From: an uncultured archaeon
Lineage (GTDB): Archaea > Hadarchaeota > Hadarchaeia > Hadarchaeales > Hadarchaeaceae
DNA: 57,798 bases
Assembly: GCA_937921735.1 (NCBI GenBank)
Contig: CAKZTQ010000045.1
Location: 1-57,798 of the forward strand
Reading direction: 5' to 3'
Shown: in pieces, positions 5,931-52,340 of the stretch
Position numbering within the stretch: position 1 is the stretch's first letter
How the letters are laid out: each line of letters opens with the position of its first letter
Program-made: the position numbers and the translations under genes
Notes under the pieces: model-generated
What the model was told of the DNA's origin: nothing
The model's database searches: none
Seen by the model: the letters and a program-made list of their open reading frames with translations, nothing else

Positions 5931-7541
5931 CTATTTAGCGCGCGCACCCGTCATCATCGCTCCTACTATTTCCTTCCTCGCCTTTTCCGCTGGGATTATG
6001 TCTACGAACTTACCCTCGTAGATCGGAGCTATCGTATCGCTTACTTGTAAAACCTCATCGAGATCTTCTGAGATGAGCAAGATCCCCATTCCTTCTTTTT
6101 TGCAATCGAGGAGCTTGTTTCTAACGAATTCTGTTGCACCGACATCGAGGCCCTGCGTAGGTAGATTAGCGATCAATAACTTCTTGGTTCTCGGGATAGT
6201 GCGTGCCAAAATTAATCTTTGTAGGTTCCCTCCGGACAGATGTGCTGCCCTCGTGTAGATACCCGGTGCCATCACCTCAAACTCCGAAATGACTTTTTCA
6301 GCATGCTCACGAATTCGTTTATAGTCGAGAAGCCCCCACTTGGAAAATTCTCTATCGAAATAAAGGCTCAGCGCAATATTTTCCATCAATGAAAATTGGG
6401 GGATGGAGCCGACCCTCACGCGCTCGGAGGGAATATATCCAATTCCCATCTTCAACCTCTCCAACGGGCTGGCGTGCGTGATATCCTTACCTTCGAACAT
6501 TACTTTTCCACCCGAGGCTTTGCGGACGCCCGCCAAAACTTCGGCGAGCTCCTGTTGCCCGTTGCCTGAAACTCCAGCGATTCCGAAAATTTCACCCTCC
6601 CTGATCGAGAAGGTCACTCCCTTTAGAGCTAAAAATCCCCTGTCGCTTATTGCTGAAAGATTTTCCACCCGCAATATTTCCTTTCCCTTTTTTACCTTCG
6701 GTTTCTTCACTCGGAAGAGGACCTCCCTCCCGACCATGTATTTCGCCAAGGCTTCCATTGTGGCTTTTCTCGTCTCAAGACGCTTAACCACTTTGCCTTT
6801 CCTGAGGATGGTAACCCTATCGCTCACGCTGAGCACTTCTGGCAACTTATGGGTAATAAACGGGATCACCGCAATTTCGGTACCCGCCATGCTCCGGAGG
6901 GATTTCAGGAATCTCTCGGTTTCGATGGGGGTCAAAACCGAGGTAGGTTCATCTAGGATCAGGAGCTTTGCGCCTCGATAAAGGGCCTTCACGATTTCCA
7001 CGGATTGTTGTTCGCCTGCCGATAGTTGCCAGACCTTGGCATCGAGGTCTATTTTAAAACCGTATTTATCGCAGAGTTCTTGCACTTCCTTTTTAGCCGC
7101 CTCAATATCCACGATTTTCCCAGCCTTCGGATGCCCCAAAATGATGTTCTCTAAGGCAGTGTGGGCGGGTATCAACTTTCGATGTTGGTGGACCATCCCT
7201 ATCCCGAGGTTGATAGCGTCCAAGGGGGACTTGAATTCCACTTTTTTACCGCGGATGTAAATCTCGCCTTCGTCCGGTTTCAACAGGCCGTAGAGGATGT
7301 TCATGAGGGTGGTTTTTCCCGCACCGTTTTCCCCCAAAATAGCGTGGATTTCACCGGCTCTTATCTCTAAATCAATATGATCGTTGGCCACGACGCCTCC
7401 AGGAAACTTTTTGGTGATCCCCCTTGCCTCGAGGACGACTTCACCGTGTTTTAAATTGGCCCAGAATTTTTCTGATAATTGGCTTCTCTCTTCTTTACGC
7501 CCACCGAAGAGGTCAATTATCTTTTGGCTGAGCACCGACAT
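5931..7541 (-). CDS. nucleoside ABC transporter ATP-binding protein with two ABC domains
   Basis: A 536-aa tandem ABC ATPase of the sugar/nucleoside (RbsA/NupO-like) type. The first domain is canonical: Walker A GENGAGKTT (about residue 70), signature LSAGEQQ, Walker B LLILDEPTS. The second is degenerate: GVSGNGQQE replaces Walker A and LLIANLPTQGLD replaces Walker B (no Asp-Glu pair), as is common in this family, so one composite site is expected to carry out hydrolysis. It is first in the operon. Its start diverges from gatE with a 116-bp gap. Confidence 0.9.
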   Translation of the reverse strand: MSVLSQKIIDLFGGRKEERSQLSEKFWANLKHGEVVLEARGITKKFPGGVVANDHIDLEIRAGEIHAILGENGAGKTTLMNILYGLLKPDEGEIYIRGKKVEFKSPLDAINLGIGMVHQHRKLIPAHTALENIILGHPKAGKIVDIEAAKKEVQELCDKYGFKIDLDAKVWQLSAGEQQSVEIVKALYRGAKLLILDEPTSVLTPIETERFLKSLRSMAGTEIAVIPFITHKLPEVLSVSDRVTILRKGKVVKRLETRKATMEALAKYMVGREVLFRVKKPKVKKGKEILRVENLSAISDRGFLALKGVTFSIREGEIFGIAGVSGNGQQELAEVLAGVRKASGGKVMFEGKDITHASPLERLKMGIGYIPSERVRVGSIPQFSLMENIALSLYFDREFSKWGLLDYKRIREHAEKVISEFEVMAPGIYTRAAHLSGGNLQRLILARTIPRTKKLLIANLPTQGLDVGATEFVRNKLLDCKKEGMGILLISEDLDEVLQVSDTIAPIYEGKFVDIIPAEKARKEIVGAMMTGARAK

Positions 7542-27938: not shown

Positions 27939-28304
27939 CTATTTCACCCTGGAAATGAACATTAACGGATAATCGAGCTCTCGCACGTAGCGCATACCCA
28001 CGCGAATCCTCGATTTCCCGTACTTTGCGACCAGCTCGATCGAAAGCATCCTCCCTTCGAGCTCTGGATAAATGTACGGATGTTTCCGCTTGCCCTTTGG
28101 GCATTTGATTTTTACTTTTGCCTCCTCGATAAATGGCTGCGCGAGCGCCGCTTGTTCCATCGCTCGCTCGAGGGCTTTCACGTCATGGATGGCTGCGCCG
28201 ACGAACTGATGATAGAGGGCGCCGAGGGTTATCGCTCCCTCGAATATCGCTCGCTCGCGATCGGTCACGCTTTTGTCGAAGTACTTGCGCGCTGGGTCTT
28301 CCAT
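27939..28304 (-). CDS. mptD: archaeal dihydroneopterin aldolase
   Basis: A 121-aa MptD-like protein (the family known as DUF372/DHNA), which cleaves dihydroneopterin to 6-hydroxymethyldihydropterin and glycolaldehyde in methanopterin and folate synthesis. TDRERAIFEGAITLGALYHQF is the conserved opening helix, with the Glu the likely catalytic residue, followed by KIKCPKGKRKHPYIYPELEG and a strand-rich end. GAGGGGGAAG precedes the ATG, and it has its own TATA-like ATTATTT about 35 bp upstream. The next pathway enzyme, MptE, is encoded upstream across a palindrome-rich gap. Confidence 0.82.
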   Translation of the reverse strand: MEDPARKYFDKSVTDRERAIFEGAITLGALYHQFVGAAIHDVKALERAMEQAALAQPFIEEAKVKIKCPKGKRKHPYIYPELEGRMLSIELVAKYGKSRIRVGMRYVRELDYPLMFISRVK

Positions 28305-28678: not shown

Positions 28679-29413
28679 CTAAATGATCTTTCTGGGCACG
28701 TTCGGGATGTCCTCGCCGCCGCCGGTCAGGTTGACGAGCCTAGCCCCGAGCTCGCCCGCGAGCCACGCAAGGAGCTCCTTGCATATAGCTAGCTTGGCTA
28801 CCTTTCGCGCTAGGTCCTTGTCACCCGAGCGCTTCCCCACTTGCCTGCCGAGGTTCATACCCGCGAGGTAGATCTTAGACGCCCCCAGTTCGTGCGCCAT
28901 AAACGCGGCGCGGTCGCCATCCGTGAAGCCGCCGAAGTTGTAGAGTCTGCCGAATGGCTCGACCTGCGTGGTGCCGATGACTCGCTCTTTCAACGTCGGG
29001 GCGATGTTTCGGACCTGCCCCAAGTTGTCGCCGTGTGCGTGGACAACCAGCCAAGAGCCCAGCCGCCAGGCGCGGAGCTGATCCTGGACTTTCCCGTCGA
29101 GGTCCGTAACGATGACGTCAGGCCTGCGATACTCGATTACCGCCGAGGTAGCGCCGTCCGCTGCTATGAGCACCTTCTCCAGATATCCCGCTTGCTCCAG
29201 CCTGATCAAGTCCTCGTCTAGCGACGGACCGGCGCCGAACACCACGCACTCTTGCCCGCGGAGGATGCTCGCTAATCCGTGGGGGTCGGGGTCGGGTAGG
29301 AGGTCGTCCAGCGCCTTCGCCGCCTCGGCATCGGCGATCGGGTCAAGCCCTAGCCGTTTAACGATGGACTCGTAGCGCGGACGCCAAACCTCCCATCGCA
29401 TGTTCATCCCCAT
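28679..29413 (-). CDS. mptE: 6-hydroxymethyl-7,8-dihydropterin pyrophosphokinase (MptE type)
   Basis: A 244-aa DUF115-family protein. MptE transfers pyrophosphate from ATP to 6-hydroxymethyldihydropterin, giving the substrate for dihydropteroate synthase. MRWEVWRPRYESIV, VFGAGPSLDEDL, IAADGATSAVIEYRRPDVIVTDLDGKV and VVHAHGDNLGQ are the conserved blocks, and DLDG and HAHGDN should bind metal-ATP and pterin. Two further in-frame Met follow within five residues. It overlaps the JAMM gene by 10 bp, so the two are translated together. Confidence 0.88.
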   Translation of the reverse strand: MGMNMRWEVWRPRYESIVKRLGLDPIADAEAAKALDDLLPDPDPHGLASILRGQECVVFGAGPSLDEDLIRLEQAGYLEKVLIAADGATSAVIEYRRPDVIVTDLDGKVQDQLRAWRLGSWLVVHAHGDNLGQVRNIAPTLKERVIGTTQVEPFGRLYNFGGFTDGDRAAFMAHELGASKIYLAGMNLGRQVGKRSGDKDLARKVAKLAICKELLAWLAGELGARLVNLTGGGEDIPNVPRKII

Positions 29414-32047: not shown

Positions 32048-33055
32048 CTATCCCTCGCGGAGGCTGGCCCTGATCTCCTCGACCGCCTTCACCATAGCTT
32101 GAAGCTTGCCTATGGCCTCCTCCCGGGTTCTCGTCTTGAGCCCGCAGTCCGGGTCTATCCATAGCTGCTCTGGGCTCAGGACCTCGAGGGCGCGCCTTAT
32201 CCTCTTCTTGATGAGGTCAACGCTCTCGATGACATGTGAGTGGACGTCCACGACGCCAAACGAGATATCCTTGGTGAAGGGATGCCTCCTGAAAAGTTCG
32301 ACGAGGTCAAGCTCGCTATTCGACATCTCTAGGTCGAAGTTGTCCACGGGTAACTCGAGCATTTGGGGGTAGATGAACTCGAAGGCCCCATAACACACGT
32401 GCGCGATGAAGTATGCGTCAACGCCTCGCGTGACGATTTCGAGCGCGTCGACGACGAACTCCTCAAGCTCCTCTGGCCTCGTCGAGAGTGCCGGCTCATC
32501 TATTTGGATTATCTTCGCGCCCGCTTCCGCGAGTGCCCTCACCTCCTGATGCAGCGCTTTGGCTAAGTCCAGGCAAGCGTCCTTCCTGCTGGAGTAATAC
32601 TCGTTGAACGACCAGTCCATCATGGTATAGGGTCCTGTGATCATCCCCTTGATCGGCTTCTTGGTAAGCGCTTGGGCGAACTTCCACCAATCGACCGTTA
32701 TAGGCCCTCGCCAGCGGACCTCGCCAACGATGATGGGTTTTCGGTAATAGCGATTGCCGTATGAGCGAACGAGCCCGCTTATCTTAAAGCCCTCTAAGTT
32801 CTCGGCGAAATAGGTGGCCATATCCCCTCGATACATCTCGCCGTCCACGAGGACATCGAGCCCGATCTCCTCCTGCAGCGCTATCCACTCCTTGGTCGCT
32901 CGCTCCTCCATTTCCCTGAGATCTTTTGGTTTGAGCCTTCCAGCGAGCATCATCCTCCTCGCTTCCACCAACTGCTCGGGTTTGGGGTAGCTGCCCACGG
33001 CAGTGGTGGGCAACAAGGGAAGGTCCAGTCCGAGCTTGCGTAGTTTTTCCCTCAT
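32048..33055 (-). CDS. MetE-like methyltransferase, catalytic (C-terminal) domain
   Basis: A 335-aa protein equivalent to the C-terminal half of cobalamin-independent methionine synthase. The zinc and homocysteine residues are present: HVC (FIAHVCYGAF), a Glu in DLEMSNSELDL, and Cys in WIDPDCGLKTR. PLLPTTAVGSYPKPEQL is the N-terminal strand. Such archaeal core-MetE proteins transfer methyl groups to homocysteine, in some cases from a corrinoid or pterin donor. It overlaps the upstream partner gene by 4 bp. Confidence 0.85.
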   Translation of the reverse strand: MREKLRKLGLDLPLLPTTAVGSYPKPEQLVEARRMMLAGRLKPKDLREMEERATKEWIALQEEIGLDVLVDGEMYRGDMATYFAENLEGFKISGLVRSYGNRYYRKPIIVGEVRWRGPITVDWWKFAQALTKKPIKGMITGPYTMMDWSFNEYYSSRKDACLDLAKALHQEVRALAEAGAKIIQIDEPALSTRPEELEEFVVDALEIVTRGVDAYFIAHVCYGAFEFIYPQMLELPVDNFDLEMSNSELDLVELFRRHPFTKDISFGVVDVHSHVIESVDLIKKRIRRALEVLSPEQLWIDPDCGLKTRTREEAIGKLQAMVKAVEEIRASLREG

Positions 33056-34035
33056 CCCAGCACCTCCCTCGCCTTGTTAGCGATTGCCACGAGATTCTTG
33101 AGCTTCGCGAACGCTGTCTCGCGCGGCAAGTGCTCGAGCCCGCACGATGGGTTGAGATAGACCGGCCGGCCTTCCACATGGGGGATGATCCGTTCGAGGG
33201 TGGGCAGGACCTCGGCTTCCTTTTCCATTCTCGTGTTCCTACCGTCGATAAGCCCAAGCCCAAGTCCCTTGCTCGAGCCCTTTTCCTCGATGATGTCGAC
33301 CAAATTGCCGCTGTAGGTGAAATCGAGGCCGATGATGTCCACGGGGAGCTCTTGGAGTTTCTCGTATATCCCCGCGGCGTCGCCGAAATAGGTGTAGAGG
33401 GCTAGACTAGCGCTCTTGAAGTGTTCGCGCATTTCCTCGATCGCGTTCCGGAGTAGCTCGAGATCTTGAGGGTTTTTAAGGATGGCCGGTTCGTCCACTT
33501 GAACGATTTCAGCGCCCACTTTTTCCAGTTCACCTATCTCTCGTCCGATGGCGTTCGCTAGGTCTAGGACCAGCCCTTCGATGTCCGAGTAATGTCTGTT
33601 GATGGAAGATCTCGCGATAGTGTAAGGCCCTGTCACCACGGGTTTAACCGGGACGGGCGAGACCCCTTTGGCAAAGGAGAACTCTTCGACCAAGATGGGC
33701 CCAATCCAGCGCACCTCGCCCTCGACCACCGGCTGTCTAAAGTAGAAGTTGGTGTCGAAAAACCTCAGTAGTCCATCTATCTCGAAGCCCTTCAGCCTGC
33801 GGGCGATGTGGGAAATAGGATCATACCACCGCACTTGCCCATCCGTGACCAAATCCAAACCAGCTCGCACCTGTTCTTGGATGACCTCCTTCGTCACCTC
33901 GTCCTGTACCCGCATGAACTCCTCATCCGATATTTCCCCTTTCTCCCACCTCGCGTAGGCTTGGCGATGTTTTTGCTGCTCGGGCTTATCCCCTATGCGC
34001 GGGTAGCTTCCCGTGTTCGCCGTCAGCAACTCCAT
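33052..34035 (-). CDS. MetE-like protein, N-terminal-domain type
   Basis: A 327-aa protein with the same barrel fold as its partner, but without the zinc site: YTYFGDAAG replaces HxC and LDFTYSGN replaces the Glu. LGLIDGRNTRMEKEAEVL and VYLNPSCGLEHLPRE match the N-terminal half of MetE. So the two genes together reproduce full-length MetE in split form, in the order N then C. Start ATG before ELLTANTGSYPRIG, with TTATATCG and CTTAAAAG TATA-like boxes 30-45 bp upstream (minus strand, 34064-34080). Confidence 0.82.
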   Translation of the reverse strand: MELLTANTGSYPRIGDKPEQQKHRQAYARWEKGEISDEEFMRVQDEVTKEVIQEQVRAGLDLVTDGQVRWYDPISHIARRLKGFEIDGLLRFFDTNFYFRQPVVEGEVRWIGPILVEEFSFAKGVSPVPVKPVVTGPYTIARSSINRHYSDIEGLVLDLANAIGREIGELEKVGAEIVQVDEPAILKNPQDLELLRNAIEEMREHFKSASLALYTYFGDAAGIYEKLQELPVDIIGLDFTYSGNLVDIIEEKGSSKGLGLGLIDGRNTRMEKEAEVLPTLERIIPHVEGRPVYLNPSCGLEHLPRETAFAKLKNLVAIANKAREVLG

Positions 34036-34132
34036 CCTGTCACCAAGGCGAGATGGAAGCCAAGCGATATAACTTTTAAGTAGGTGCCAGCCGAAAACTC
34101 GCCGAGAGGGCATCGTCCCCGTTTTCAACGCA

Positions 34133-36546: not shown

Positions 36547-37482
36547 ATGGGCAAGGGCATAGGTTTCGGCAAGGTGATCCTCTTCAACGAACATTTCGTG
36601 GTCTACGGCGTGCCCTCCATCGTCTCAGCCATAGACAAGGCCACGGTTGCGGTCGTGGAGCGCTTCGACGGCGAGGGTTGGGCGCTGGAGGACGAGAGGC
36701 CCGCGACCCCAGGCTACAAGGAGGAGAAGCTCGAGCAGCAAAGGGAGTCCATCGAGAGGATCCTGAAAGCGGCTGGCCTTGACGCGACCAAAAATCCCAT
36801 CAAGATATGGTTCGGCGGCGACCTGGTGGCGGCAAGCGGGATAGGTGCTAGCGCTGCCTCCTGCGTGGCCCTCGCGCGCGCCCTCTCCGATGAGTTTGGG
36901 CTGCAGCTGTCCGACGAGCGTATAAATGAGCTGGCCTACGAAGGCGAAAAGGCCTACCATGGAACCCCCTCCGGCGTCGACAACACCGCCGCCACCTACG
37001 GCGGTCTTATATGGTTCGTCAAAGGCCAGCCTCCCCTTTTCGAGCGTATCGAGCTCAAGGAGCCAGTGGAGGTGGTGATGGGCAACACCGGCATCGTCGC
37101 CGACACGGCTGCGGCGGTGGCCGGGGTTAGGGAGAGAAAGGAGAAACATCCGGAGAAGTATGCCAAGTTGTTCAAGGAGGCGGAGGAACTGGCGTACAAG
37201 GCGAGAAAAGCGTTGGAGGACTTCAACTTGAAGGCCGTGGGTGAACTCATGGATGAAAACCACGAACAGTTACGGGCGATAGGCGTCTCCTGTGAGGAGC
37301 TAGACCGTCTAGTGGAGCTCGCTAGGGACCACGGTGCCTTCGGGGCAAAGCTAACGGGGGGCGGTTTGGGGGGCTACATGGTGGCGCTTACCCCGGGCAA
37401 GGAACTTCAGGAGGAGGTCGCGAGGGCGATCGAGCGCGAGGGCTTCGAGGCCCTGAGGACGAGGATAGGGGTGAGGCCTTGA
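36547..37482 (+). CDS. mvk: mevalonate kinase
   Basis: A 311-aa GHMP kinase making mevalonate 5-phosphate. FGKVILFNEHFVVYGVPSIVSAI is the N-terminal motif, DLVAASGIGASAASCVALARAL is the phosphate loop, GTPSGVDNTAATYGGLI contains the catalytic Asp, and KLTGGGLGGYMVAL is the C-terminal GHMP motif. AGGTAGGGAGAAG precedes the ATG. The 3' end overlaps the UbiD-type gene by 4 bp. First gene of the archaeal mevalonate operon. Confidence 0.93.
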   Translation: MGKGIGFGKVILFNEHFVVYGVPSIVSAIDKATVAVVERFDGEGWALEDERPATPGYKEEKLEQQRESIERILKAAGLDATKNPIKIWFGGDLVAASGIGASAASCVALARALSDEFGLQLSDERINELAYEGEKAYHGTPSGVDNTAATYGGLIWFVKGQPPLFERIELKEPVEVVMGNTGIVADTAAAVAGVRERKEKHPEKYAKLFKEAEELAYKARKALEDFNLKAVGELMDENHEQLRAIGVSCEELDRLVELARDHGAFGAKLTGGGLGGYMVALTPGKELQEEVARAIEREGFEALRTRIGVRP

Positions 37483-38753
37483 ACTTCAGGGACTTCGTCG
37501 AGCTCTTGGACAAGAAGGGGCTACTGGTGAGGATCAAGAAGCCTGTGAGCACCAAGCTCGAGGCGGCCGCATTGATGCGGGCGCTCGATGGGAGGCCCGT
37601 GATGTTCGAGAAGGTCGAGGGCTTCGAGATGCCCATCGCGGCGAACGTGTGCTCCTCCCGCGAGCTCATAGCGTTGGGTTTGGGCGTGAAGGAGGGGGAG
37701 CTGTTGAGCAAGCTTGCGGAGGCCATCGACAATCCCAAGGAGCCCGAGGTAGTAGAAGCGGAGGGTTACGGGGAGATCGGGGTAGACCTGGGCGGGCTCC
37801 CCATCCTGACGCATTACCCCTTCGACGGCGGTCCGTACATCTCCTCGGGCGTGGTGATAGCCAGGGACCCGGAGCTAGGGCTCAACGCCTCCTATCATAG
37901 GATGATGGTGATAGGTAAGGACAAAGTGGTGGTAAGGATCCTCCCGAGGCACTTCGATGAGTTTCTGAAACGGGGCAACAGGGAGTTCGCGGTTTGCATC
38001 GGCAACCCGGTGCCAGTATTGGTTGCGGCGGCGGTGTCGACGGAGCTGGGAGTAAGCGAACTTAGCATAGCGAACGCGCTGGCCGAGACGAGGCTGGTGA
38101 AGCTCGGTGGGCACAAGGTGCCAGAGGCGGAGATAGTCATGATTGCCGAGATGACCGACGAGCTCCACGACGAAGGGCCATTCTTGGACCTCACCGAAAC
38201 CCCCGACATCGTTCGAAAACAGCGGGTGGCGAGGATACGACGAATATTCGTCAAGCAAGGGGCGATCTATCACGCGTTGCTACCGGGTGGGTTCGAGCAC
38301 AAGCTGCTAATGGGGATGCCACGGGAGCCTACGATATTTAAGGAGGTCAGCAAGGTCTGCGAGTGCAAGGGCGTGCTCATAACCCCCGGCGGATGCTCTT
38401 GGCTGCACGCCATCGTCAGCATAAAAAAGAAGGGACCAGACGATGGGAGGAAAGCGATAGAGGCCGCGTTCAAGGGGCACAGATCGCTCAAGCACGTGTT
38501 CGTGGTGGACGACGACATAGACATCCACAATCCGCACGAGGTGGAGTGGGCGATGGCCACGCGCTTCCAAGGCGATCGGGACATGATCCTGCGCAGGGAA
38601 CCCGGCTCCTCGCTTGATCCCTCCTCGGACCTCGAGACGAGGGAGACGGCCAAGGTTGGCTTCGACCTTACGATACCCTGGGGGAGGGACCCCAAGGACT
38701 TCAAGAAGCCCGGCCCGCCCATGGAGATCAAGCTCGAGGACTACCTGGGGTAG
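37479..38753 (+). CDS. UbiD-family decarboxylase (anhydromevalonate phosphate decarboxylase)
   Basis: A 424-aa UbiD-type protein, expected to use prenylated FMN. MNFRDFVELLDKKGLLVRIKKPV, PVMFEKVEGFEMPIAANV, HYPFDGGPYISSGVVIARDP and FVVDDDIDIHNPHEVEWAMATR are conserved blocks, the last holding the acidic catalytic and metal region. Its place between mevalonate kinase and both aconitase-X subunits identifies it, by knowledge of the modified archaeal mevalonate pathway, as trans-anhydromevalonate 5-phosphate decarboxylase giving isopentenyl phosphate. TTG start overlaps the TGA of the previous gene. Confidence 0.87.
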   Translation: MNFRDFVELLDKKGLLVRIKKPVSTKLEAAALMRALDGRPVMFEKVEGFEMPIAANVCSSRELIALGLGVKEGELLSKLAEAIDNPKEPEVVEAEGYGEIGVDLGGLPILTHYPFDGGPYISSGVVIARDPELGLNASYHRMMVIGKDKVVVRILPRHFDEFLKRGNREFAVCIGNPVPVLVAAAVSTELGVSELSIANALAETRLVKLGGHKVPEAEIVMIAEMTDELHDEGPFLDLTETPDIVRKQRVARIRRIFVKQGAIYHALLPGGFEHKLLMGMPREPTIFKEVSKVCECKGVLITPGGCSWLHAIVSIKKKGPDDGRKAIEAAFKGHRSLKHVFVVDDDIDIHNPHEVEWAMATRFQGDRDMILRREPGSSLDPSSDLETRETAKVGFDLTIPWGRDPKDFKKPGPPMEIKLEDYLG

Positions 38754-38757
38754 TGGC

Positions 38758-39942
38758 TTGTACCTGACCAAGGAGCAAGAGCGGATGCTCGCCGGCGAGT
38801 ACGGCGAGGTGCTGGAGAGGAACTTCAGGTTACTGGTGAGGCTGGGCGACATATATGGCGCCGACCGCATGATCCCCGTTGGCTCGGTGCAGGTCGCCGG
38901 CGTCTCCTATAAGTCGATAGGGGACCCCGGCCTTGAGTTCCTCGAGGACCTCGCGGACAAGGGGGCGAGGGTGAGGGTGCCCACGACGCTCAACCCGCCG
39001 GGCATGGACCTCGAGGACTGGAAACAGCTGGGGTTCCCGGAGGACTTCGCGGAAAAACAGTTGAGGATAATCGCAGCGTTCCGTAAGATGGGTGTGATGA
39101 TGACCGCCACCTGCACCCCCTACTTGGTCGGCAACCTACCTCGCTTTCGAGAGCACCTCGCTTGGTCGGAGTCGTCCGCGGTATCCTTCGCGAACTCGGT
39201 AATAGGCGCAAGGACGAACCGCGAAGGCGGCCCCTCCGCGCTCGCCTCCGCGCTTTGTGGTGTGACCCCGAACTATGGGCTGCACCTAAACGAGAACCGG
39301 CAGCCGACCATCGTGGTGGACGTTAAGGTTGAACTCAGACATGAAGCGGACTTCGGTGCCTTGGGCTATCACGTGGGGAAAACCATCGAAAAGGGAGTGC
39401 CCTATTTCAAGGGCATCAAGCACGCGGACGTCGACCAGCTCAAGGCGCTGGGCGCCGCCATGGCCGCCTCTGGAGCGATAGCGCTTTACCACGTGGAGGG
39501 GATAACGCCGGAGGCCGATCTCGTAAACGTGGAGGGGTTGGAGAAGTTGGAGGTCGACGAGGGAGAACTTAGGGGGGCTTACGAGAAGCTGAACACCGGC
39601 GAGGAACCGGATATAGCGATCCTGGGCTGTCCCCACGCCTCGCTAAGGGAGATCGCGAAGCTGGCCGAAAAATTGGAGGGCAAACGCCTTCGCAAGCCGC
39701 TTTGGATATGCACCGCGCGCGCGACCAAGCGGGCTGCTGAAGGGATGGGGCTGGTAGACGCGATCGAACGGGCTGGGGGGAAAGTGGTCGCCGATACGTG
39801 CGCCGTAGTTGCGCCAATAGAGCGCATGGGGTTTAAGTGCACAGCCGTTAACTCGGGGAAGGCGGCGAGCTACCTACCTGGATTCTGCAAGCAGGCGGTC
39901 GTCTTTAGAAGCATCGACGAGATATTGGGGATGATGGCTTGA
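38758..39942 (+). CDS. phosphomevalonate dehydratase, large subunit (aconitase X)
   Basis: A 394-aa AcnX catalytic domain. LTKEQERMLAGEYG, ATCTPYLVGNLP, SESSAVSFANSVIGARTNREGGPSAL and ILGCPHASLREI are typical; Cys residues such as those in CTPY, CPHAS and ADTCAVVAP are candidate iron-sulfur and substrate residues. Together with the small subunit it dehydrates mevalonate 5-phosphate to trans-anhydromevalonate 5-phosphate. I start at TTG 38758 (MYLTKEQERM), 4 bp after the previous stop. The open frame upstream overlaps the UbiD gene and is not real. Confidence 0.9.
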   Translation: MYLTKEQERMLAGEYGEVLERNFRLLVRLGDIYGADRMIPVGSVQVAGVSYKSIGDPGLEFLEDLADKGARVRVPTTLNPPGMDLEDWKQLGFPEDFAEKQLRIIAAFRKMGVMMTATCTPYLVGNLPRFREHLAWSESSAVSFANSVIGARTNREGGPSALASALCGVTPNYGLHLNENRQPTIVVDVKVELRHEADFGALGYHVGKTIEKGVPYFKGIKHADVDQLKALGAAMAASGAIALYHVEGITPEADLVNVEGLEKLEVDEGELRGAYEKLNTGEEPDIAILGCPHASLREIAKLAEKLEGKRLRKPLWICTARATKRAAEGMGLVDAIERAGGKVVADTCAVVAPIERMGFKCTAVNSGKAASYLPGFCKQAVVFRSIDEILGMMA

Positions 39943-40322
39943 GGGGGCGCACGATAAGCCCGGGTAAGGCGAGGGGGGAGGCGTTGGTCTCGAGGCAGCC
40001 GATCGGCTTTTATGGGGGGGTGGACCCGAAAACGGGCATGATCATAGAAAGAGGGCATGAGCTAGAGGGGAAGTGCGTGAAGGATAAGATACTAGTCTTC
40101 CCGTGCGGCAAGGGCTCGACGGTGGGTTCGTACGTCATCTACGGGCTGAAGAAGAACGGCGTCGCCCCAGCGGCGATAGTCAACCGAGAGACCGAGACGA
40201 TAGTTGCGACGGGGGCCATCTTGGCCGGCATCCCATGCGTCGACGGGATAGACATCGACAGGATCAAGACAGGCGATAGGCTGATCGTCGATGCCGACGA
40301 GGGCAAGGTGGAATTCGAATGA
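39939..40322 (+). CDS. phosphomevalonate dehydratase, small subunit (aconitase X)
   Basis: A 127-aa swivelling-domain protein (DUF126). RTISPGKARGEALVSRQPIGFYGGVDPKTG opens it, and FPCGKGSTVGSYVIYGL holds the conserved GKGSTVGS segment that faces the active site, followed by AIVNRETETIVATGAILAGIPCVDGID. TTG start overlaps the TGA of the large subunit, so the subunits are translationally coupled. It overlaps the next small gene by 4 bp. Confidence 0.9.
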   Translation: MRGRTISPGKARGEALVSRQPIGFYGGVDPKTGMIIERGHELEGKCVKDKILVFPCGKGSTVGSYVIYGLKKNGVAPAAIVNRETETIVATGAILAGIPCVDGIDIDRIKTGDRLIVDADEGKVEFE

Positions 40323-44526: not shown

Positions 44527-45291
44527 CTACTTTTTCTTTTTAGACGATCTCGAAAGCCCGAGGCACCTCGCATAAACGCATCGCTTGGGCGAGATCTTCG
44601 GCGAACTTCTCGGTTTATCCACGATCTCCAAGCCAGCATCGCGGACGATCACGACCGGCACTCGCTCGGCCGCTTCCCCCATCACCACCTGCGCGGCGGA
44701 GGCTATCTGGTCCGCGATGGCCCTAAAGGTGATCTTAAGCCTTCTTCCGAACAAGTCCAGCTGGCCGCGGCAGTCGATGACGGGTTCGATGCCCGCGACG
44801 CCGATGGCTTTGCCGATCGTACCCAGGCGAAGGGGTTGAACTTGGCTGTCCGCTATTATCACTCCCACTCTGGCCCCGGATCGCTGCCTGAGCTTCCGCA
44901 TCATCTCCTCGGCTGCCAGATCGGGCTTCGACGGCATCAACACGACTTGCCCGGGTGGCGCGTTCGAGTGATCCACTCCCGCGTTGATGCAAAGCATGCC
45001 CTCCCTTAAGGTCAGCAACGCATACCTCGCTACCCCCAAAACCTCGCTTGCCTCCCTTAGCACCAGCTCGACGAACTCCGGCTCCAACCTGCTCCTCTTG
45101 GCCAGCTGCTTCGCGCGCTTAGAGGGTCGAACACGAGCTAGCTCCTTTAAGCGACCTTGGGCGGTAGCCAGAGCGCTCGAGGCCACGACGACGATATCCC
45201 CATCCCTCAGCCCGCCCACCTGCTCGGAGGCCTTCAAGATCATCGACACCAGATCATCGCCGGGCTTAACGAGCGGCATGTTTAAGCCCAA
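44527..45291 (-). CDS. CofE paralogue, F420:glutamate-ligase-like
   Basis: A 254-aa member of the CofE family, clearly distinct from the CofE at 50669-51409. Shared blocks are GDIVVVASSALATAQGRL, INAGVDHSNAPPGQVVLMP, VIIADSQVQPLRLGTIGKAIGVAGIEPVIDCRGQ and DQIASAAQVVMGEA. It has SSALATAQG where the other copy has AQTIVSKVEG, and ends in a basic Cys-containing tail (CVYARCLGLSRSSKKKK). Being last in an operon after DHPS, it could add glutamate to a pterin cofactor instead of F420 (inference). Start 13 bp after the DHPS stop. Confidence 0.82.
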   Translation of the reverse strand: MGLNMPLVKPGDDLVSMILKASEQVGGLRDGDIVVVASSALATAQGRLKELARVRPSKRAKQLAKRSRLEPEFVELVLREASEVLGVARYALLTLREGMLCINAGVDHSNAPPGQVVLMPSKPDLAAEEMMRKLRQRSGARVGVIIADSQVQPLRLGTIGKAIGVAGIEPVIDCRGQLDLFGRRLKITFRAIADQIASAAQVVMGEAAERVPVVIVRDAGLEIVDKPRSSPKISPKRCVYARCLGLSRSSKKKK

Positions 45292-45304
45292 AACCCTCGT
45301 CGTA

Positions 45305-46168
45305 TCACCTCGCTAAATCCCGCTCTTCACCTGAGCGTTTAACCCTTGCGCCGGCACTCCTTATGGCCTCGGCGATCCTGACCGCATGCGATGTCTCCTT
45401 GGGGTCATGAGTTCTGACGACGTCCACGCCATTGAGCACCGCTATCGCAGTAGCGGCTAGGGAGCCCCAAAGCCTATCGCCAGGATCGGACAGGTTCAAC
45501 ACGCGCCCGATGAAGGATTTTCTGGAAACGGCCACGCAGATCGGGCGACCTAAGTTCTTCAACCTACCTAAGTTGGCTAGGATGTGGAGGTCCCACTCAG
45601 CGCCCTTTCCAAAACCTATGCCAGGATCGACGACCACCTTTCGCTCGTCGATGCCGTTGAGCTTGCATATGCTCAAACTATCGCGGAGTGCATTCATGAC
45701 CTCGTCGATGCTCTCGGCGTCGCCCGGTCTCTCGTTGGCGGCCATCAGGACGGTCGAACACCCGAAGCTCGAGATCACCCGTGCCATCTTTGGGTCGGCC
45801 TTGAGCCCGCTGACGTCGTTTATTATGCTTGCGCCAGCTTCTAAGGCGGCCTCGGCCACCTTAGCCCGCTGGGTATCGACGGAAATGGGTGCATCTAGTC
45901 CTTTGACGAGCGCCCTGACGACCGGGATTAGCCTCCGCATCTCCAGCGAGGTTGGGATGGGTTTGGCCCCGGGGGCAGTAGACATCGCCCCGACATCGAT
46001 GATGTGGGCCCCCTCTTCGAGCATGGTGCCCGCGCGCTCTACGGCCTCAGCTTTGCTCCGAACCACCGATCCGCGATAAAAGGACTCGGGGCCGACGTTT
46101 ATCGCCCCGACTATCACGACCGGATTTCCGCCCCCGACCCTTATCCCCGCGAGCTCGGCATATCCCAT
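45305..46168 (-). CDS. dihydropteroate synthase-like protein
   Basis: A 287-aa pterin-binding TIM-barrel enzyme. INVGPESFY, HIIDVGAMSTAPGAKPI, ISVDTQRAKVAEAAL, INDVSGLK, VVDPGIGFGKG, VSRKSFIGRV and VVRTHDPKE are the classic DHPS motifs. It would couple the MptE product (pterin pyrophosphate) to an aryl amine such as a ribofuranosylaminobenzene derivative in methanopterin synthesis. ATG at GYAELAG with GGGGAG upstream is preferred to a longer frame overlapping the radical SAM gene. 11 bp separate it from that gene. Confidence 0.88.
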   Translation of the reverse strand: MGYAELAGIRVGGGNPVVIVGAINVGPESFYRGSVVRSKAEAVERAGTMLEEGAHIIDVGAMSTAPGAKPIPTSLEMRRLIPVVRALVKGLDAPISVDTQRAKVAEAALEAGASIINDVSGLKADPKMARVISSFGCSTVLMAANERPGDAESIDEVMNALRDSLSICKLNGIDERKVVVDPGIGFGKGAEWDLHILANLGRLKNLGRPICVAVSRKSFIGRVLNLSDPGDRLWGSLAATAIAVLNGVDVVRTHDPKETSHAVRIAEAIRSAGARVKRSGEERDLAR

Positions 46169-46179
46169 GATCTCCCCGC

Positions 46180-47181
46180 TCAATCGCTTCCCAACCAACA
46201 GGTTGGGTCCTCCGCGAGGAAATCGCCGCTCCTCGCAAATGCCATCGCCCTGCACCCACCGCACCAATTTCTGTAATCGCAGACACCACATCTCCCCTTC
46301 AGGTTGTCCCTATCCCTGAGCGCGGCTAGGAGCTCCGAGGAGTACCAAATCTCCCGAAGAGACATCTCGCGCACGTTGCCTAGCGCCAGCTGGAGCCTCG
46401 AGCAAGGTGAGACGTTCCCGTCCGCCGAGACGCAGAGGATGGAAATGCCCGCCGTACAACCTCCTCGGATCTCATTGCTAGGTCTTCTCCGCTTTCCGCT
46501 TAGCAGCCCGGCGTATGGATTGCAGGTGGTGACGATATCGAGCTTCCCGTTTAGCTCCTTTTTCTTAGCGAGCAGGTATTCATACAGCCCTTTTTGCTCT
46601 TGCGGGGTAAGGCAGTACTCGCTTATGGACTTAGCCTGGCCCATGGGGATCATCACTTTCGTCGAGAAGTTCACCCCCAGCTCGAGTGCGAGCGAGAGAA
46701 GGGCCGGAAGTTCATGTAAGTTGTGCTTCGAGAAGGTGGGTGAAAGATAGGTCTTCACGCCAGCGCTCTTCAGGGACCTTATCGCCCTCAAACACCTCTG
46801 GAAGGAGCCGGGCTTGTTCCTGAATTCATCGTGGGTTTGCCTGATGCCGTCCACGCTCACCGAGACGTGATCCACCCCGCTGCTTCGGAATAGCTTGGCC
46901 CTCTCTTCGGTCAAGTACCACCCGTTGGTGATCGCCGCGACCCGCAACCCCAAATCAACCGCATATCGTATGAGGACGAAGAGGTCCCGCCTCGCTAAGG
47001 GCTCCCCGCCGCTTATGTAAAGCTCCTCGGCCCCTAAATCAGCTACTTGCACCAGCAGCCTCTTCGCCTCCTCGGTGCTCAAATCCCTTCGCTTGGGAGG
47101 GGGCACGTAGCAATGTTTACAGGAGAAATTGCACTTGCTCGTGATGTTCCAAGTCACGGAATAAAGACCATGCCAGACCAT
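46180..47181 (-). CDS. radical SAM protein with SPASM domain
   Basis: A 333-aa enzyme. The [4Fe-4S]-SAM motif is CNFSCKHC (C17, C21, C24), ISGGEPLARRDLF is the GGE motif. The C-terminal SPASM region supplies Cys for auxiliary clusters: GGCTAGISILCVSADGNVSPCSRL and CGVCDYRNWCGGCRAMAFARSG, with a final Cys near residue 330. SPASM enzymes modify peptides or build cofactors. It is first in the operon with DHPS and the CofE paralogue. The substrate cannot be named. Confidence 0.85.
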   Translation of the reverse strand: MVWHGLYSVTWNITSKCNFSCKHCYVPPPKRRDLSTEEAKRLLVQVADLGAEELYISGGEPLARRDLFVLIRYAVDLGLRVAAITNGWYLTEERAKLFRSSGVDHVSVSVDGIRQTHDEFRNKPGSFQRCLRAIRSLKSAGVKTYLSPTFSKHNLHELPALLSLALELGVNFSTKVMIPMGQAKSISEYCLTPQEQKGLYEYLLAKKKELNGKLDIVTTCNPYAGLLSGKRRRPSNEIRGGCTAGISILCVSADGNVSPCSRLQLALGNVREMSLREIWYSSELLAALRDRDNLKGRCGVCDYRNWCGGCRAMAFARSGDFLAEDPTCWLGSD

Positions 47182-47377: not shown

Positions 47378-47401
47378 TTGACCCAAAATCCACGGGGCGG
47401 C

Positions 47402-48532
47402 ATGAAGCAGCTTCAGCTTGCCAGCGTCCATCGCTCCCTGGGGGCGAAGATGGTACCGTTTGCTGGTTGGGAAATGCCACTTATGTATTCCAGTATCGCA
47501 GAAGAACACCTTGCCGTCAGGGAGACCGCTGGATTATTCGACGTCAGCCACATGGGCGAGCTGATCGTCGAGGGAAAGGACGTCGAGGACTTTCTACAGC
47601 ACGTAACCTCGAACGACTTAGCTAAGCTAAAAGTGTTCGATGCGCAGTACTCGACGGTTCTCAACGAGCGCGGCGGCGTGAAGGATGACGTCTTCGTTTA
47701 CAAGCTCGAGGAGCAAAAGTACATGGTGGTGACCAACGCGGTCAACGTCGAGAAGATCTTCAATTGGTTCAAGCAGCACGCTCGGGGAGATGTTAAGATA
47801 GAGGACATCACGGATCGAACGGTCATGCTAGCATTGCAAGGGCCTAGGGCGGAAGAAGTGCTCCAGCAATTGACAGAATTCGAGCTAAAAGGGCTGAAGC
47901 GCTTCAAGAGCGCCCAGATCGAAATAGCCAACATTCCCCTGCTCGTGAGCCGCACCGGCTACACAGGCGAGGATGGGTTTGAGCTCTACCTGATGGATGA
48001 AAGCGCTTCCAAACCCGGGCGCGCGGAAAAGCTTTGGGATGTCCTGCTTCGCGCTGGTGAGGAGGTCGGCGTTAGACCCTGTGGCTTAGGTGCGAGGGAT
48101 ACCACAAGGCTAGAGGCGGGATATGTGCTTTATAATCACGAGCTCAACGAGGAGATCACACCGCTTGAGGCCAAGATACAGTATGCGGTCAAGTTGGAGA
48201 AGGGGGACTTCGTAGGACGCGAAGCTCTCATCGCACAGAAGGAGGTTGGGTTGAAGAAAATGCGCATAGGTCTCAAGATGCTGGAGCCGGGTGTGCCCAG
48301 AGAAGGTTGTAGGGTGTTGAAGGATGGGAAGGAAGTGGGTTATCTAACCTCCGGCACCTTTTCGCCTCTCTTGAAAGTCGGAATCGCCATGGGCTACGCA
48401 ACCCCAGATATCGCGCTCGGCACGGAGGTGATGGTCGAAATACACGGCAAACCTCGGCGAGCGGAGGTCGTCGGATGGCCGTTTTACGATCCTCAAAAGT
48501 ATGGCTTCAGCAGGAGGGCGGAATCATCGTGA
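47402..48532 (+). CDS. gcvT: aminomethyltransferase, glycine cleavage T protein
   Basis: A 376-aa GcvT. MVPFAGWEMPLMYSS, GLFDVSHMGELIVEG, SNDLAKL, LQGPRAEEVLQ and VSRTGYTGEDGFELYL are the family motifs; LGARDTTRLEAGYVLYNHEL binds the pterin. It transfers the C1 unit of a lipoyl-bound aminomethyl group to tetrahydrofolate or tetrahydromethanopterin. The start is ATG 47402 after GGGGCGG, with GTTTAAAC as the TATA box about 30 bp upstream. gcvP and gcvH are not in the window. It overlaps the FrhB-like gene by 4 bp. Confidence 0.92.
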   Translation: MKQLQLASVHRSLGAKMVPFAGWEMPLMYSSIAEEHLAVRETAGLFDVSHMGELIVEGKDVEDFLQHVTSNDLAKLKVFDAQYSTVLNERGGVKDDVFVYKLEEQKYMVVTNAVNVEKIFNWFKQHARGDVKIEDITDRTVMLALQGPRAEEVLQQLTEFELKGLKRFKSAQIEIANIPLLVSRTGYTGEDGFELYLMDESASKPGRAEKLWDVLLRAGEEVGVRPCGLGARDTTRLEAGYVLYNHELNEEITPLEAKIQYAVKLEKGDFVGREALIAQKEVGLKKMRIGLKMLEPGVPREGCRVLKDGKEVGYLTSGTFSPLLKVGIAMGYATPDIALGTEVMVEIHGKPRRAEVVGWPFYDPQKYGFSRRAESS

Positions 48533-49637: not shown

Positions 49638-50627
49638 CTACTTTAAAAGTTCCTCTATCGAATCTATGGCCTTGGCCGGCTCTGGTCCTATGGGGGCGCC
49701 GATGACGACCTGTGTTATCCCCAGCTTGTCTAGATCGTCGATATGTCTCTCGAAATCAGATGGCGTGCCGCATACCGCGAAGGCATCGATCATCCGATCG
49801 GTCACCGCCTCAGCTGCCTTTTGAACTTCCCCGATGCGAAGGTACTCCCAAACTTTTTTCACCTCATCTAGAGGTATATCGTGCCTCTGCAGTGCCCAAG
49901 GAGGGGCGGAAGATGCTATGAAGGCGACGATCCTCCTCACCGCCCTTCGAGCTTTTTCCACGTCCTCATCGATGGAGGTTGCCATGTATGCAACCACATC
50001 TAACTCCTCGAGCTTTTTATTGGAGGACTCAGCCCCTCTCCTGATATAGCCGATGCATTCCTTTAGGTCATCGCGGTGCGATGCATTTATGAGCGCCCCA
50101 TCGGCGATCGAACCCGCCAGTTCCAACATTCTCGGTCCACGGCCACCAACGTATATCGGTACCCTGGTATCGGGCTTGAAGCGGAGCTTCGCGCCCCTAC
50201 AGGTGAAAACCTCGCCGGAAAAATCCACCCGCTCCCCCGCTAGCAACCTACGAGCGATGTGCACCGCCTCTCGCACGGCGGCGATGGGCCTGTGGTGTCT
50301 TACCCCCACCGTGGCGAGGAAAGTAGGATCGCCGGCGGAGATGCCGAGGACCGCGCGACCACCCGAGAGCTCGTCCAGCGTGGCGATCGCCGCGGCCGTC
50401 ACGGCGGGGTGGACGAGGTAGGGGTTGGTCACCCCCGGCCCTAACCTCACCCGTTTGGTGGCGAGGGCAATCGCCGCCAGCACGGAGTGCACGTAGCGAT
50501 TGTGATAGTGGTCGCATACCCAAACGTAATCAAACCCAGCGCCCTCCACCTTCTTCGCGAGCGAGACCAAGGCGTCGCACGTTTTATAGGGCACGAACTC
50601 CACGCCGAACTTCACCGAATCCCCCAC
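49638..50627 (-). CDS. mer: methylene-tetrahydromethanopterin reductase (Mer)
   Basis: A 329-aa F420-dependent luciferase-like barrel. VKFGVEFVPYKTCDALVSLAKK, WVCDHYHNRYVHSVLAAIALAT, RLGPGVTNPYLVHPAVTAAAIATLDELSGGRAVLGI, GGRGPRMLELAGSIADGALINASH and VGTPxxF-like CGTPSDF close to the end are typical of Mer, not of general F420 oxidoreductases. Mer reduces methylene- to methyl-H4MPT, the last reductive step of the archaeal methyl branch. Convergent with the FrhB-like gene (2-bp gap), divergent from cofE (41-bp gap). Confidence 0.88.
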   Translation of the reverse strand: MGDSVKFGVEFVPYKTCDALVSLAKKVEGAGFDYVWVCDHYHNRYVHSVLAAIALATKRVRLGPGVTNPYLVHPAVTAAAIATLDELSGGRAVLGISAGDPTFLATVGVRHHRPIAAVREAVHIARRLLAGERVDFSGEVFTCRGAKLRFKPDTRVPIYVGGRGPRMLELAGSIADGALINASHRDDLKECIGYIRRGAESSNKKLEELDVVAYMATSIDEDVEKARRAVRRIVAFIASSAPPWALQRHDIPLDEVKKVWEYLRIGEVQKAAEAVTDRMIDAFAVCGTPSDFERHIDDLDKLGITQVVIGAPIGPEPAKAIDSIEELLK

Positions 50628-50668: not shown

Positions 50669-51409
50669 GTGCAACTCATCCCCCTCAAAGGTCTACCTTT
50701 GGTGAAAAGAGGCGATCGCATAGATGAGCTGATCGTCGACGCCCTCAAGAGGCAGGGTTTGGAGCTGGAAGATGGAGACGTGGTGGTGGTGGCACAGACC
50801 ATCGTCTCCAAGGTGGAGGGAAGCGTCGTCGACCTCCGAAAGGTTAAGCCCAGCAAGTTCGCGAGGTATTTGGCCAAGAAGTTAGAAAGGGATGCGAGAG
50901 AGGTCGAGGTCATCCTCCAGCAATCCAGGGAGATAATTAGACTGAAGCACGTTTTGATCGCACGGACCGAGCATGGTTTTGTCTGCGCCAACGCAGGCGT
51001 GGACCACTCCAACGCTGGGGCAAATCGCGTGACTCTCCTGCCGCGTGACCCGGATGCGAGCGCGAGGAGGATCCGAGAGGGGATAAGGCGGGCTTTAGGC
51101 AAGGACGTCGCGGTCATCGTCTCCGACACGCAGGGGAGGCCCTTCAGACAGGGCGCCATAGGCGTGGCCGTGGGCGTGGCCGGGATGAAACCCCTGTTGG
51201 ACCTCAGGGGAAGACGGGACCTATACGGAAAGGAACTAAGGGCCACGATCACCTCTCCGGCTGACGCGATAGCAGCCGCGGCGGTAGCGCTGATGGGTGA
51301 GGCCGATGAGGGCACACCTGTGGTCGTAGTAAAGGGGGCGGTCTACGAACGCGGTGAGGGCAGCGCGCGAGAACTCGTCATGCCCAAGGAGAGGGATTTG
51401 TTCGGGTGA
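50669..51409 (+). CDS. cofE: coenzyme F420-0:L-glutamate ligase
   Basis: A 246-aa CofE. GDVVVVAQTIVSKVEGSVVDL, FVCANAGVDHSNAGANRVTLLPRDPD, IVSDTQGRPFRQGAIGVAVGVAGMKPLLDLRG and ITSPADAIAAAAVALMGEADEGTPVVVVKG are the family blocks. It adds gamma-linked glutamates to F420-0 with GTP. GTG start. The TGA overlaps the start area of cofD by close spacing (4 bp). Confidence 0.93.
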   Translation: MQLIPLKGLPLVKRGDRIDELIVDALKRQGLELEDGDVVVVAQTIVSKVEGSVVDLRKVKPSKFARYLAKKLERDAREVEVILQQSREIIRLKHVLIARTEHGFVCANAGVDHSNAGANRVTLLPRDPDASARRIREGIRRALGKDVAVIVSDTQGRPFRQGAIGVAVGVAGMKPLLDLRGRRDLYGKELRATITSPADAIAAAAVALMGEADEGTPVVVVKGAVYERGEGSARELVMPKERDLFG

Positions 51410-51413
51410 TGAA

Positions 51414-52340
51414 GTGCTGGCGGTGCTCTCGGGCGGCACGGGAACGCCGAAGTTGCTGCAAGGGTTATCGCGCCTGCTCGAGCCACGCGAGCTGGCGATC
51501 ATCGTCAACACCGGTGAGGACTTAGAGGTCTCCGGCATGTACGTCTCACCCGATATAGATACCGTCGTTTACACGCTCGCCGGCATAGTGAACGAGGAAA
51601 CGTGGTATGGCATCCGAGGGGACACCTTCCTTTGCCACGAGATGCTCAAACGCTTGGGCGAGGTCGAGATGCTCAGGATCGGGGATCGGGATAGAGCTGT
51701 CAAGCTTTATCGCACGCTCCTGCTCAAGCGGGGAAAAACCCTTTCTGAAGCCACGGGAATGCTTTGCGAGAAGCTGGGCGTCGAATTCAGGGTCATGCCA
51801 ATGTCGGACGACCGCGTGACGACGAGCATCGTCACGGAGTCGGGAAAGATGTCCTTCCATGAATTCTGGGTCGTCCGCAAGGCCGAAGACAGGGTCTTAG
51901 ATGTTAAGTTCGAGGGGGTGGAAACCGCCAGGCCGGCGCCAGGCGTGATCGAGACGCTCGAATCGGCAGAGGCGATCCTAATCGGACCTAGCAACCCCGT
52001 GACGAGCATCGGCCCGATTGTCTCGATTGGGGAAATCAGGCGGGCCTTATGCAGGCGGCGGGGCGACGTGATCGCCATCAGCCCGATCATCGGAGATCGC
52101 CCGGTAAGCGGGCCGGCAGGCGTGCTGATGAAGGGATTGGGCTACAGCGTAAGCCCAATTGGGGTGGCGCAGCTCTACCGCGATTTCGTGGGAAAGTTCC
52201 TCGTGGACTATTCCGACGGACATCTCGCCCCGGCGATAGAGGAACTCGACATAAAAGTGGTGTCCACGAACATCCTCATGCCCAATCACTTAAGCAGGAT
52301 AGAATTGGCGCGTAAGGTACTCGAATTATTGAAGGGATGA
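51414..52340 (+). CDS. cofD: LPPG:FO 2-phospho-L-lactate transferase
   Basis: A 308-aa CofD. VLSGGTGTPKLLQGL is the nucleotide-binding opening, VNTGEDLEVSGMYVSPDIDTVVYTLAGIVNEETWYGI follows, then IRGDTFLCHEMLKRL, LIGPSNPVTSIGPI and SPIIGDRPVSGPA. It transfers phospholactate (or phosphoenolpyruvate) from the CofC product to FO, forming F420-0. GTG start before LAVLSGG chosen, since the family starts there. Its 3' end overlaps the convergent cofH by 15 bp. Confidence 0.93.
   Translation: MLAVLSGGTGTPKLLQGLSRLLEPRELAIIVNTGEDLEVSGMYVSPDIDTVVYTLAGIVNEETWYGIRGDTFLCHEMLKRLGEVEMLRIGDRDRAVKLYRTLLLKRGKTLSEATGMLCEKLGVEFRVMPMSDDRVTTSIVTESGKMSFHEFWVVRKAEDRVLDVKFEGVETARPAPGVIETLESAEAILIGPSNPVTSIGPIVSIGEIRRALCRRRGDVIAISPIIGDRPVSGPAGVLMKGLGYSVSPIGVAQLYRDFVGKFLVDYSDGHLAPAIEELDIKVVSTNILMPNHLSRIELARKVLELLKG

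Follow-up and report, generated by a model that had tools for sequence, protein, structure and literature searches.

The window analysed here, a stretch of 57,798 nucleotides, comes from a Hadesarchaeon whose genome (1.05 Mb) is 83% complete. Three genes with intact reading frames lie head to tail on its minus strand. The first encodes an AhbD-like radical SAM/SPASM enzyme (46180-47181; PF04055 and PF13186) and is followed by folP, the gene of a folate-type dihydropteroate synthase (DHPS; 45305-46168; TIGR01496, 262.6 bits against a cut-off of 162.6), and by the gene of a second CofE-family ligase, a putative dihydrofolate/folylpolyglutamate synthase that is called CofE2 below (44527-45291; PF01996, 243.9 bits). 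The stop codon of the SPASM gene is separated by 11 nt from the ATG of DHPS, and the stop codon of DHPS by 13 nt from the TTG start of cofE2. For DHPS the ATG at 46168 is the most likely start; the mechanical ORF start at 46291 falls within the SPASM gene. The preliminary description of this DNA took the three genes for one operon, and both the short gaps and the recurrence of the order agree with it: since the order SPASM-DHPS-CofE2 is kept in two other genera (genomes G002 and G009) and the DHPS-CofE2 pair is found across many archaeal phyla, the arrangement exceeds chance.

The surroundings of the operon contain further genes of pterin and F420 metabolism. Divergent from it on the plus strand is gcvT, encoding an aminomethyltransferase (47378-48532; TIGR00528, 379 bits, cut-off 235.85), and in Odin-, Baldr- and Hermodarchaeota, too, gcvT and folP point away from each other. 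A Mer-type F420-dependent methylene-tetrahydropterin reductase is encoded on the minus strand (49638-50627; TIGR03555, 379 bits, cut-off 348.7). The canonical F420-0:L-glutamate ligase gene, cofE, was found on the plus strand at 50669-51409, where it had been placed before; its product scored 288.6 bits with TIGR01916, exceeded the cut-offs of both this model and NF009809, carries the motif DTQGRPFR and falls inside the CofE clade of the tree described below. Beside it is cofD (51354-52340, plus strand), recognised from its sequence and its conserved place next to cofE in relatives; the coordinates given are those of the mechanical ORF start and overlap the end of cofE. The genes cofH and cofG lie downstream of this pair. 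The presence in the window of MptD, the archaeal dihydroneopterin aldolase (27939-28304, minus strand), and of MptE, the 6-hydroxymethylpterin diphosphokinase (28679-29413, minus strand), was also correctly described, with matches to PF04038 (112 bits) and PF01973 (78 bits), respectively. Elsewhere in the window, genes for a mevalonate kinase-like protein, a UbiD-like decarboxylase and aconitase-X subunits stand in a row (36547-40322) that, by its sequences, resembles the modified mevalonate pathway of archaea. A tandem pair of core-length MetE-like genes is found at 32048-34128; with the archaeal methionine synthase model, one of them exceeds the cut-off and the other falls short of it.

CofE2 resembles CofE in family and fold. 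In a Pfam scan it was matched by PF01996 only, and of the NCBIfam CofE models TIGR01916 accepts it (229.5 bits, cut-off 180.65) while NF009809 does not (219.8 bits, cut-off 274). The AlphaFold2 model of CofE2 (pLDDT 89) matched CofE structures only, with a TM score of 0.87 to the Archaeoglobus enzyme (7uld/2phn). A maximum-likelihood tree of 122 proteins separates the two. A single branch with an SH-aLRT value of 100 splits the CofE2 clade (53 proteins and L216) from all other CofE, the groups having been named by a motif from the same alignment, of which the tree uses 259 columns. The protein L216 carries the CofE2 motif, was given a different label by a narrow pattern and falls on the CofE2 side.

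The residues that distinguish the two groups are located where the F420 ring is bound. In Archaeoglobus CofE the ring is held by G153-C155 and by R234 of the partner subunit (Bashiri et al. 2024, PMC10861534). No other alignment column separates the groups as well as that of G153, with Gly in 98% of CofE and Val, Thr, Leu or Ile in CofE2. Arg at position 154 is found in 100% of CofE and 7% of CofE2, the clade having Gln, Lys or His, and R234 is kept in 85% of CofE, this genome's own canonical CofE having Met there, and is replaced by Ile, Val or Met in CofE2. At these three positions the CofE2 of the window has V151, Q152 and a residue other than Arg. The catalytic residues of the Archaeoglobus enzyme (D109, N112, D150, D181 and E208) are invariant in all CofE2. 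F92 was also considered as a group marker and was dropped, being variable within CofE itself. Retention of the catalytic residues together with a changed ring pocket fits a ligase for a different large substrate. Judged by its sequence, CofE2 is not CofE and belongs to a distinct, fully supported archaeal clade, which supports both the expectation that the paralogue does not serve F420 and the phylogenetic separation proposed as a check of it.

A second F420 ligase, making a longer glutamate tail or making the tail under other conditions, could be expected to share the CofE fold and family and to be accepted by TIGR01916, as CofE2 is, and in three Hadesarchaea (G023-G025) cofE2 is divergent to cofE. 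Such a role is nevertheless very improbable given the loss of the ring-holding residues throughout the CofE2 clade, which never groups with CofE in the tree, and the linkage of cofE2 to folP, mptE and folD and not to cofD. Moreover, G042, G063 and G103 (loci L193, L196 and L201), each with a completeness rating of 99%, have CofE2 as their sole PF01996 protein, encoded beside folP.

The linkage to folP also distinguishes the groups. A folate-type DHPS gene was located within 1 kb of 33 of the 53 CofE2 genes and of 0 of the 114 CofE genes, which upholds the conserved adjacency that the preliminary description wished to see examined; 7 further CofE2 have DHPS within 5 kb. The Fisher p value of 2e-21 for this difference is uncorrected for relatedness and is only indicative, because the sequences are related and the relatives were partly chosen for holding a second PF01996 gene. 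In the same family as the host, the pair was found in G002-G006, G008, G009, G011, G013, G014, G018, G019 and G021, and it is also present in a genome of a sister family (G022). When the collection was scanned with the CofE2 alignment, by which homologues from other archaea were gathered regardless of their neighbours, most of those best matching CofE2 again adjoined DHPS. The lineages with cofE2 next to folP include Odin-, Baldr-, Hermod-, Loki- and Heimdallarchaeota, Hodarchaeum, Harpocratesius, Methanocellaceae and Methanoperedenaceae.

Other folate genes accompany cofE2 as well. It is the last gene in operons of tetrahydrofolate (H4F) genes of methanogens: a Methanocellaceae genome has the order folD, 5-formyl-THF cyclo-ligase (5FCL), purN, purH, folP, cofE2, and two methanogen-like genomes have glyA, folD, folP, metV, metF, thiC, cofE2, a similar order being found in a third. 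In two further lineages cofE2 adjoins an mptE-like gene. For Methanosarcinaceae and ANME-2/3 an H4F cluster of MetF-MetV-FolP-FolD-GlyA-PurN has been described, with no mention of a CofE gene (PMC9012536). Several details of these loci were recorded separately. The gene between metF and cofE2 in the methanogen-like H4F operons encodes the radical SAM protein ThiC (L194:5200-6468 and L204:5117-6388). A Hermodarchaeon (L115) has a truncated cofE2 after folP (2529-2879) and a full copy 3.4 kb downstream (5986-6792), and the long ORF preceding the full copy may be a transposase. The FolP proteins of Asgard archaea and methanogens (L112:4757-5971, L113:4755-5999 and L194:2445-3680) have about 130 extra C-terminal residues, an extension that is missing from the Hadesarchaeal FolP of the window.

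The distribution of the genes points to the same pathway. FolC of the Mur type gave no model match in this genome (83% complete) or in any of 28 near relatives (up to 95% complete), although controls responded. In a set of 150 archaeal genomes FolC was above the cut-off in 18, and none of these 18 has a PF01996 gene. Among 45 genomes with a folate-type DHPS, CofE2 is found in 31 and FolC in 8 (one a fragment), no genome has both and 6 have neither; the zero overlap would have a chance of 1e-5 if the genomes were independent. In two genomes, G001 and G012, CofE2 is present and DHPS was not found.

The preliminary description suggested that the paralogue glutamylates a pterin, in place of either FolC or MptN, the glutamate ligase of tetrahydromethanopterin (H4MPT). 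The first of these is the best reading of the data; the second was not supported. The DHPS of the window scored 22 bits with TIGR00284 (cut-off 256.65), which we take to be the model of the MJ0301-type (H4MPT) dihydropteroate synthase, so its scores assign it to the folate type; they do not point to the MJ0301 type, which serves H4MPT. Two H4MPT markers, beta-RFAP synthase and Mch, were not found in Hadesarchaea having folP-cofE2 and are missing from most CofE2-bearing Hadesarchaea. Within the group, beta-RFAP synthase was found in G010, G016 and G023-G026 and Mch in G016 and G023-G025. What speaks for a substitute of MptN is that three Hadesarchaea (G023-G025; loci L050, L051 and L052) have H4MPT genes and CofE2 and lack folP. 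These H4MPT-type genomes also have FolD, and so probably use both carriers, whereas G010 and G016, likewise of the H4MPT type with beta-RFAP synthase, showed no CofE2. In methanogens, too, the neighbours of cofE2 are H4F enzymes. Replacement of MptN by CofE2 was rejected on the distribution of beta-RFAP synthase, Mch and FolD, and we give it hardly any chance.

The reading that we favour, with a probability of about 85%, is that CofE2 is an archaeal dihydrofolate (polyglutamate) synthase replacing FolC, and that the folP-cofE2 pair would thus make the second half of folate. Its replacement of FolC would follow from the proposed coupling of dihydropteroate (or tetrahydropteroate) to L-glutamate. 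In the proposed sequence of steps, MptD and MptE would supply 6-hydroxymethyl-dihydropterin diphosphate, which FolP would couple to p-aminobenzoate to give dihydropteroate. Using two metal ions and a nucleotide, by analogy GTP, CofE2 would convert the carboxylate of dihydropteroate (or tetrahydropteroate) to an acyl phosphate, from which L-glutamate would displace the phosphate, yielding dihydrofolate. CofE2 may also attach more gamma-glutamates, in the way that CofE does with F420-0. The substrate, the nucleotide and the number of glutamates in this scheme are those that we infer for the enzyme. Some observations weigh against this reading: CofE2 without folP in the H4MPT-type genomes G023-G025, CofE2 with no DHPS found in G001 and G012, the six DHPS genomes that have neither ligase, the missing FolD of this genome, G002 and G009, and the acceptance of CofE2 by TIGR01916.

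In this genome, folate would serve GcvT and probably also the Mer-like reductase of the window. Given the lack of Mch and beta-RFAP synthase, this reductase (49638-50627) probably uses folate and may be an F420-dependent methylene-H4F reductase. FolD was not found in this genome (G000), G002 or G009, and for this reason folate use in the three rests on GcvT, the Mer-like reductase and the biosynthesis genes.

The same three genomes are the only ones with an orthologue of the SPASM enzyme (77% identity in G002, 63% in G009), always encoded directly before folP, while most folP-cofE2 pairs are without it. Scores separate the trio sharply from all other SPASM proteins, at least 688 bits against at most 260. 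As the three genomes form clades in both the CofE2 tree (support 98) and the DHPS tree (support 94), a single gain of the gene suffices, and from the spacing it appears to be co-transcribed with folP-cofE2 in one Hadesarchaeal subclade. No candidate for a precursor peptide stood out around the gene; between its start and gcvT lie 196 bp, hardly enough to accommodate one. The protein has a CX3CX2C motif at residue 17 and an 8-Cys SPASM motif at residue 220.

Heme chemistry, supply of p-aminobenzoate and an unrelated role may be considered for this enzyme. Its best NCBIfam match is AhbD (TIGR04545), with 268.8 bits, and its full 8-cysteine spacing is that described for methanogen AhbD (PMC10452713); the next-best matches are methanogen-like proteins of AhbD length. 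A divergent heme synthase, or other tetrapyrrole enzyme whose gene only happens to be on the transcript, may thus be entertained, though doubtfully, given that the score falls well short of the 500 bits that the AhbD cut-off demands, that no other heme gene was recognised within the window and that the trio is set apart by the score gap from all other SPASM proteins. A part in the folate pathway, for instance in an alternative to PabABC for supplying p-aminobenzoate, could account for the first place of the gene in tightly spaced operons of three genera with proteins of 63-77% identity, and a search with PF00425 found in these genomes no second, shorter chorismate-binding enzyme that could be PabB. 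We consider this part unlikely, because the SPASM gene is absent from most folP-cofE2 genomes and five SPASM-negative folP genomes likewise show no second chorismate-binding enzyme; the absence of FolD and of this enzyme is common to several genomes without the SPASM gene. To our knowledge, no SPASM enzyme makes p-aminobenzoate. The most far-reaching version, in which the AhbD-like enzyme would carry out a novel radical step for folate or its p-aminobenzoate part in one Hadesarchaeal subclade and the operon would be a complete pterin-arylamine-glutamate assembly unit entered by a new radical reaction, seems distinctly unlikely.

If CofE2 acts as proposed, it would be the missing folate-glutamate step of archaeal vitamin B9 synthesis in the FolC-less archaea surveyed, and one clade, recognisable by two sequence signatures, would account for it in several groups of methanogens as well as in Hadesarchaea and Asgard archaea. 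From Chlamydiae a protein of the CofE family is already known to act as FolC. For the deep archaeal CofE2 clade, which has signatures of its own and is linked to folP in many phyla, no description was found in the searchable literature; in the literature search, whose coverage lay outside subscription journals, no paper assigning archaeal CofE paralogues to folate was found. As NCBIfam calls CofE2 an "F420-0 ligase" above the trusted cut-off, the whole clade is probably misannotated. A second "CofE" in databases would then wrongly be taken as evidence of F420, and for genomes having CofE2 only, a false claim of F420 synthesis would be possible. In G042, G063 and G103 standard annotation would give CofE and hence suggest F420.

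Several known systems can be compared with these enzymes. The SPASM enzyme shares its cysteine spacing with the AhbD heme synthase, its best match, but its gene is set among folate genes and not among heme genes. MptN is an ATP-grasp H4MPT:glutamate ligase, and CofE2 has no ATP-grasp fold, as seen from the exclusive match to PF01996 and of its model to CofE structures. The Mur-ligase type FolC/FPGS catalyses the reaction proposed for CofE2 with an unrelated fold. The family TIGR04132, a putative folate metabolism gamma-glutamate ligase, is a CofE-like family already suspected of a folate role, but CofE2 scored only 94 bits with it (cut-off 350). Archaeoglobus CofE (AF2256, PDB 2PHN and 7ULD) has 37% identity with CofE2 in the structural alignment and is expected to share with it the fold, the GTP/metal site and the glutamate chemistry; CofE2 differs in the replaced ring contacts G153, R154 and R234, in its separate clade and in its gene neighbours. 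The closest parallel in function is the chlamydial FolC2 (CT611), a COG1478 CofE homologue able to rescue an E. coli folC mutant (PMC1971073). Like CofE2, this CofE-family ligase is encoded among clustered folate genes where FolC is absent from the organism, a likeness drawn from the published description. Chlamydiae, however, have no further genes of the F420 pathway; the archaeon studied here has retained a true CofE in addition to CofE2.
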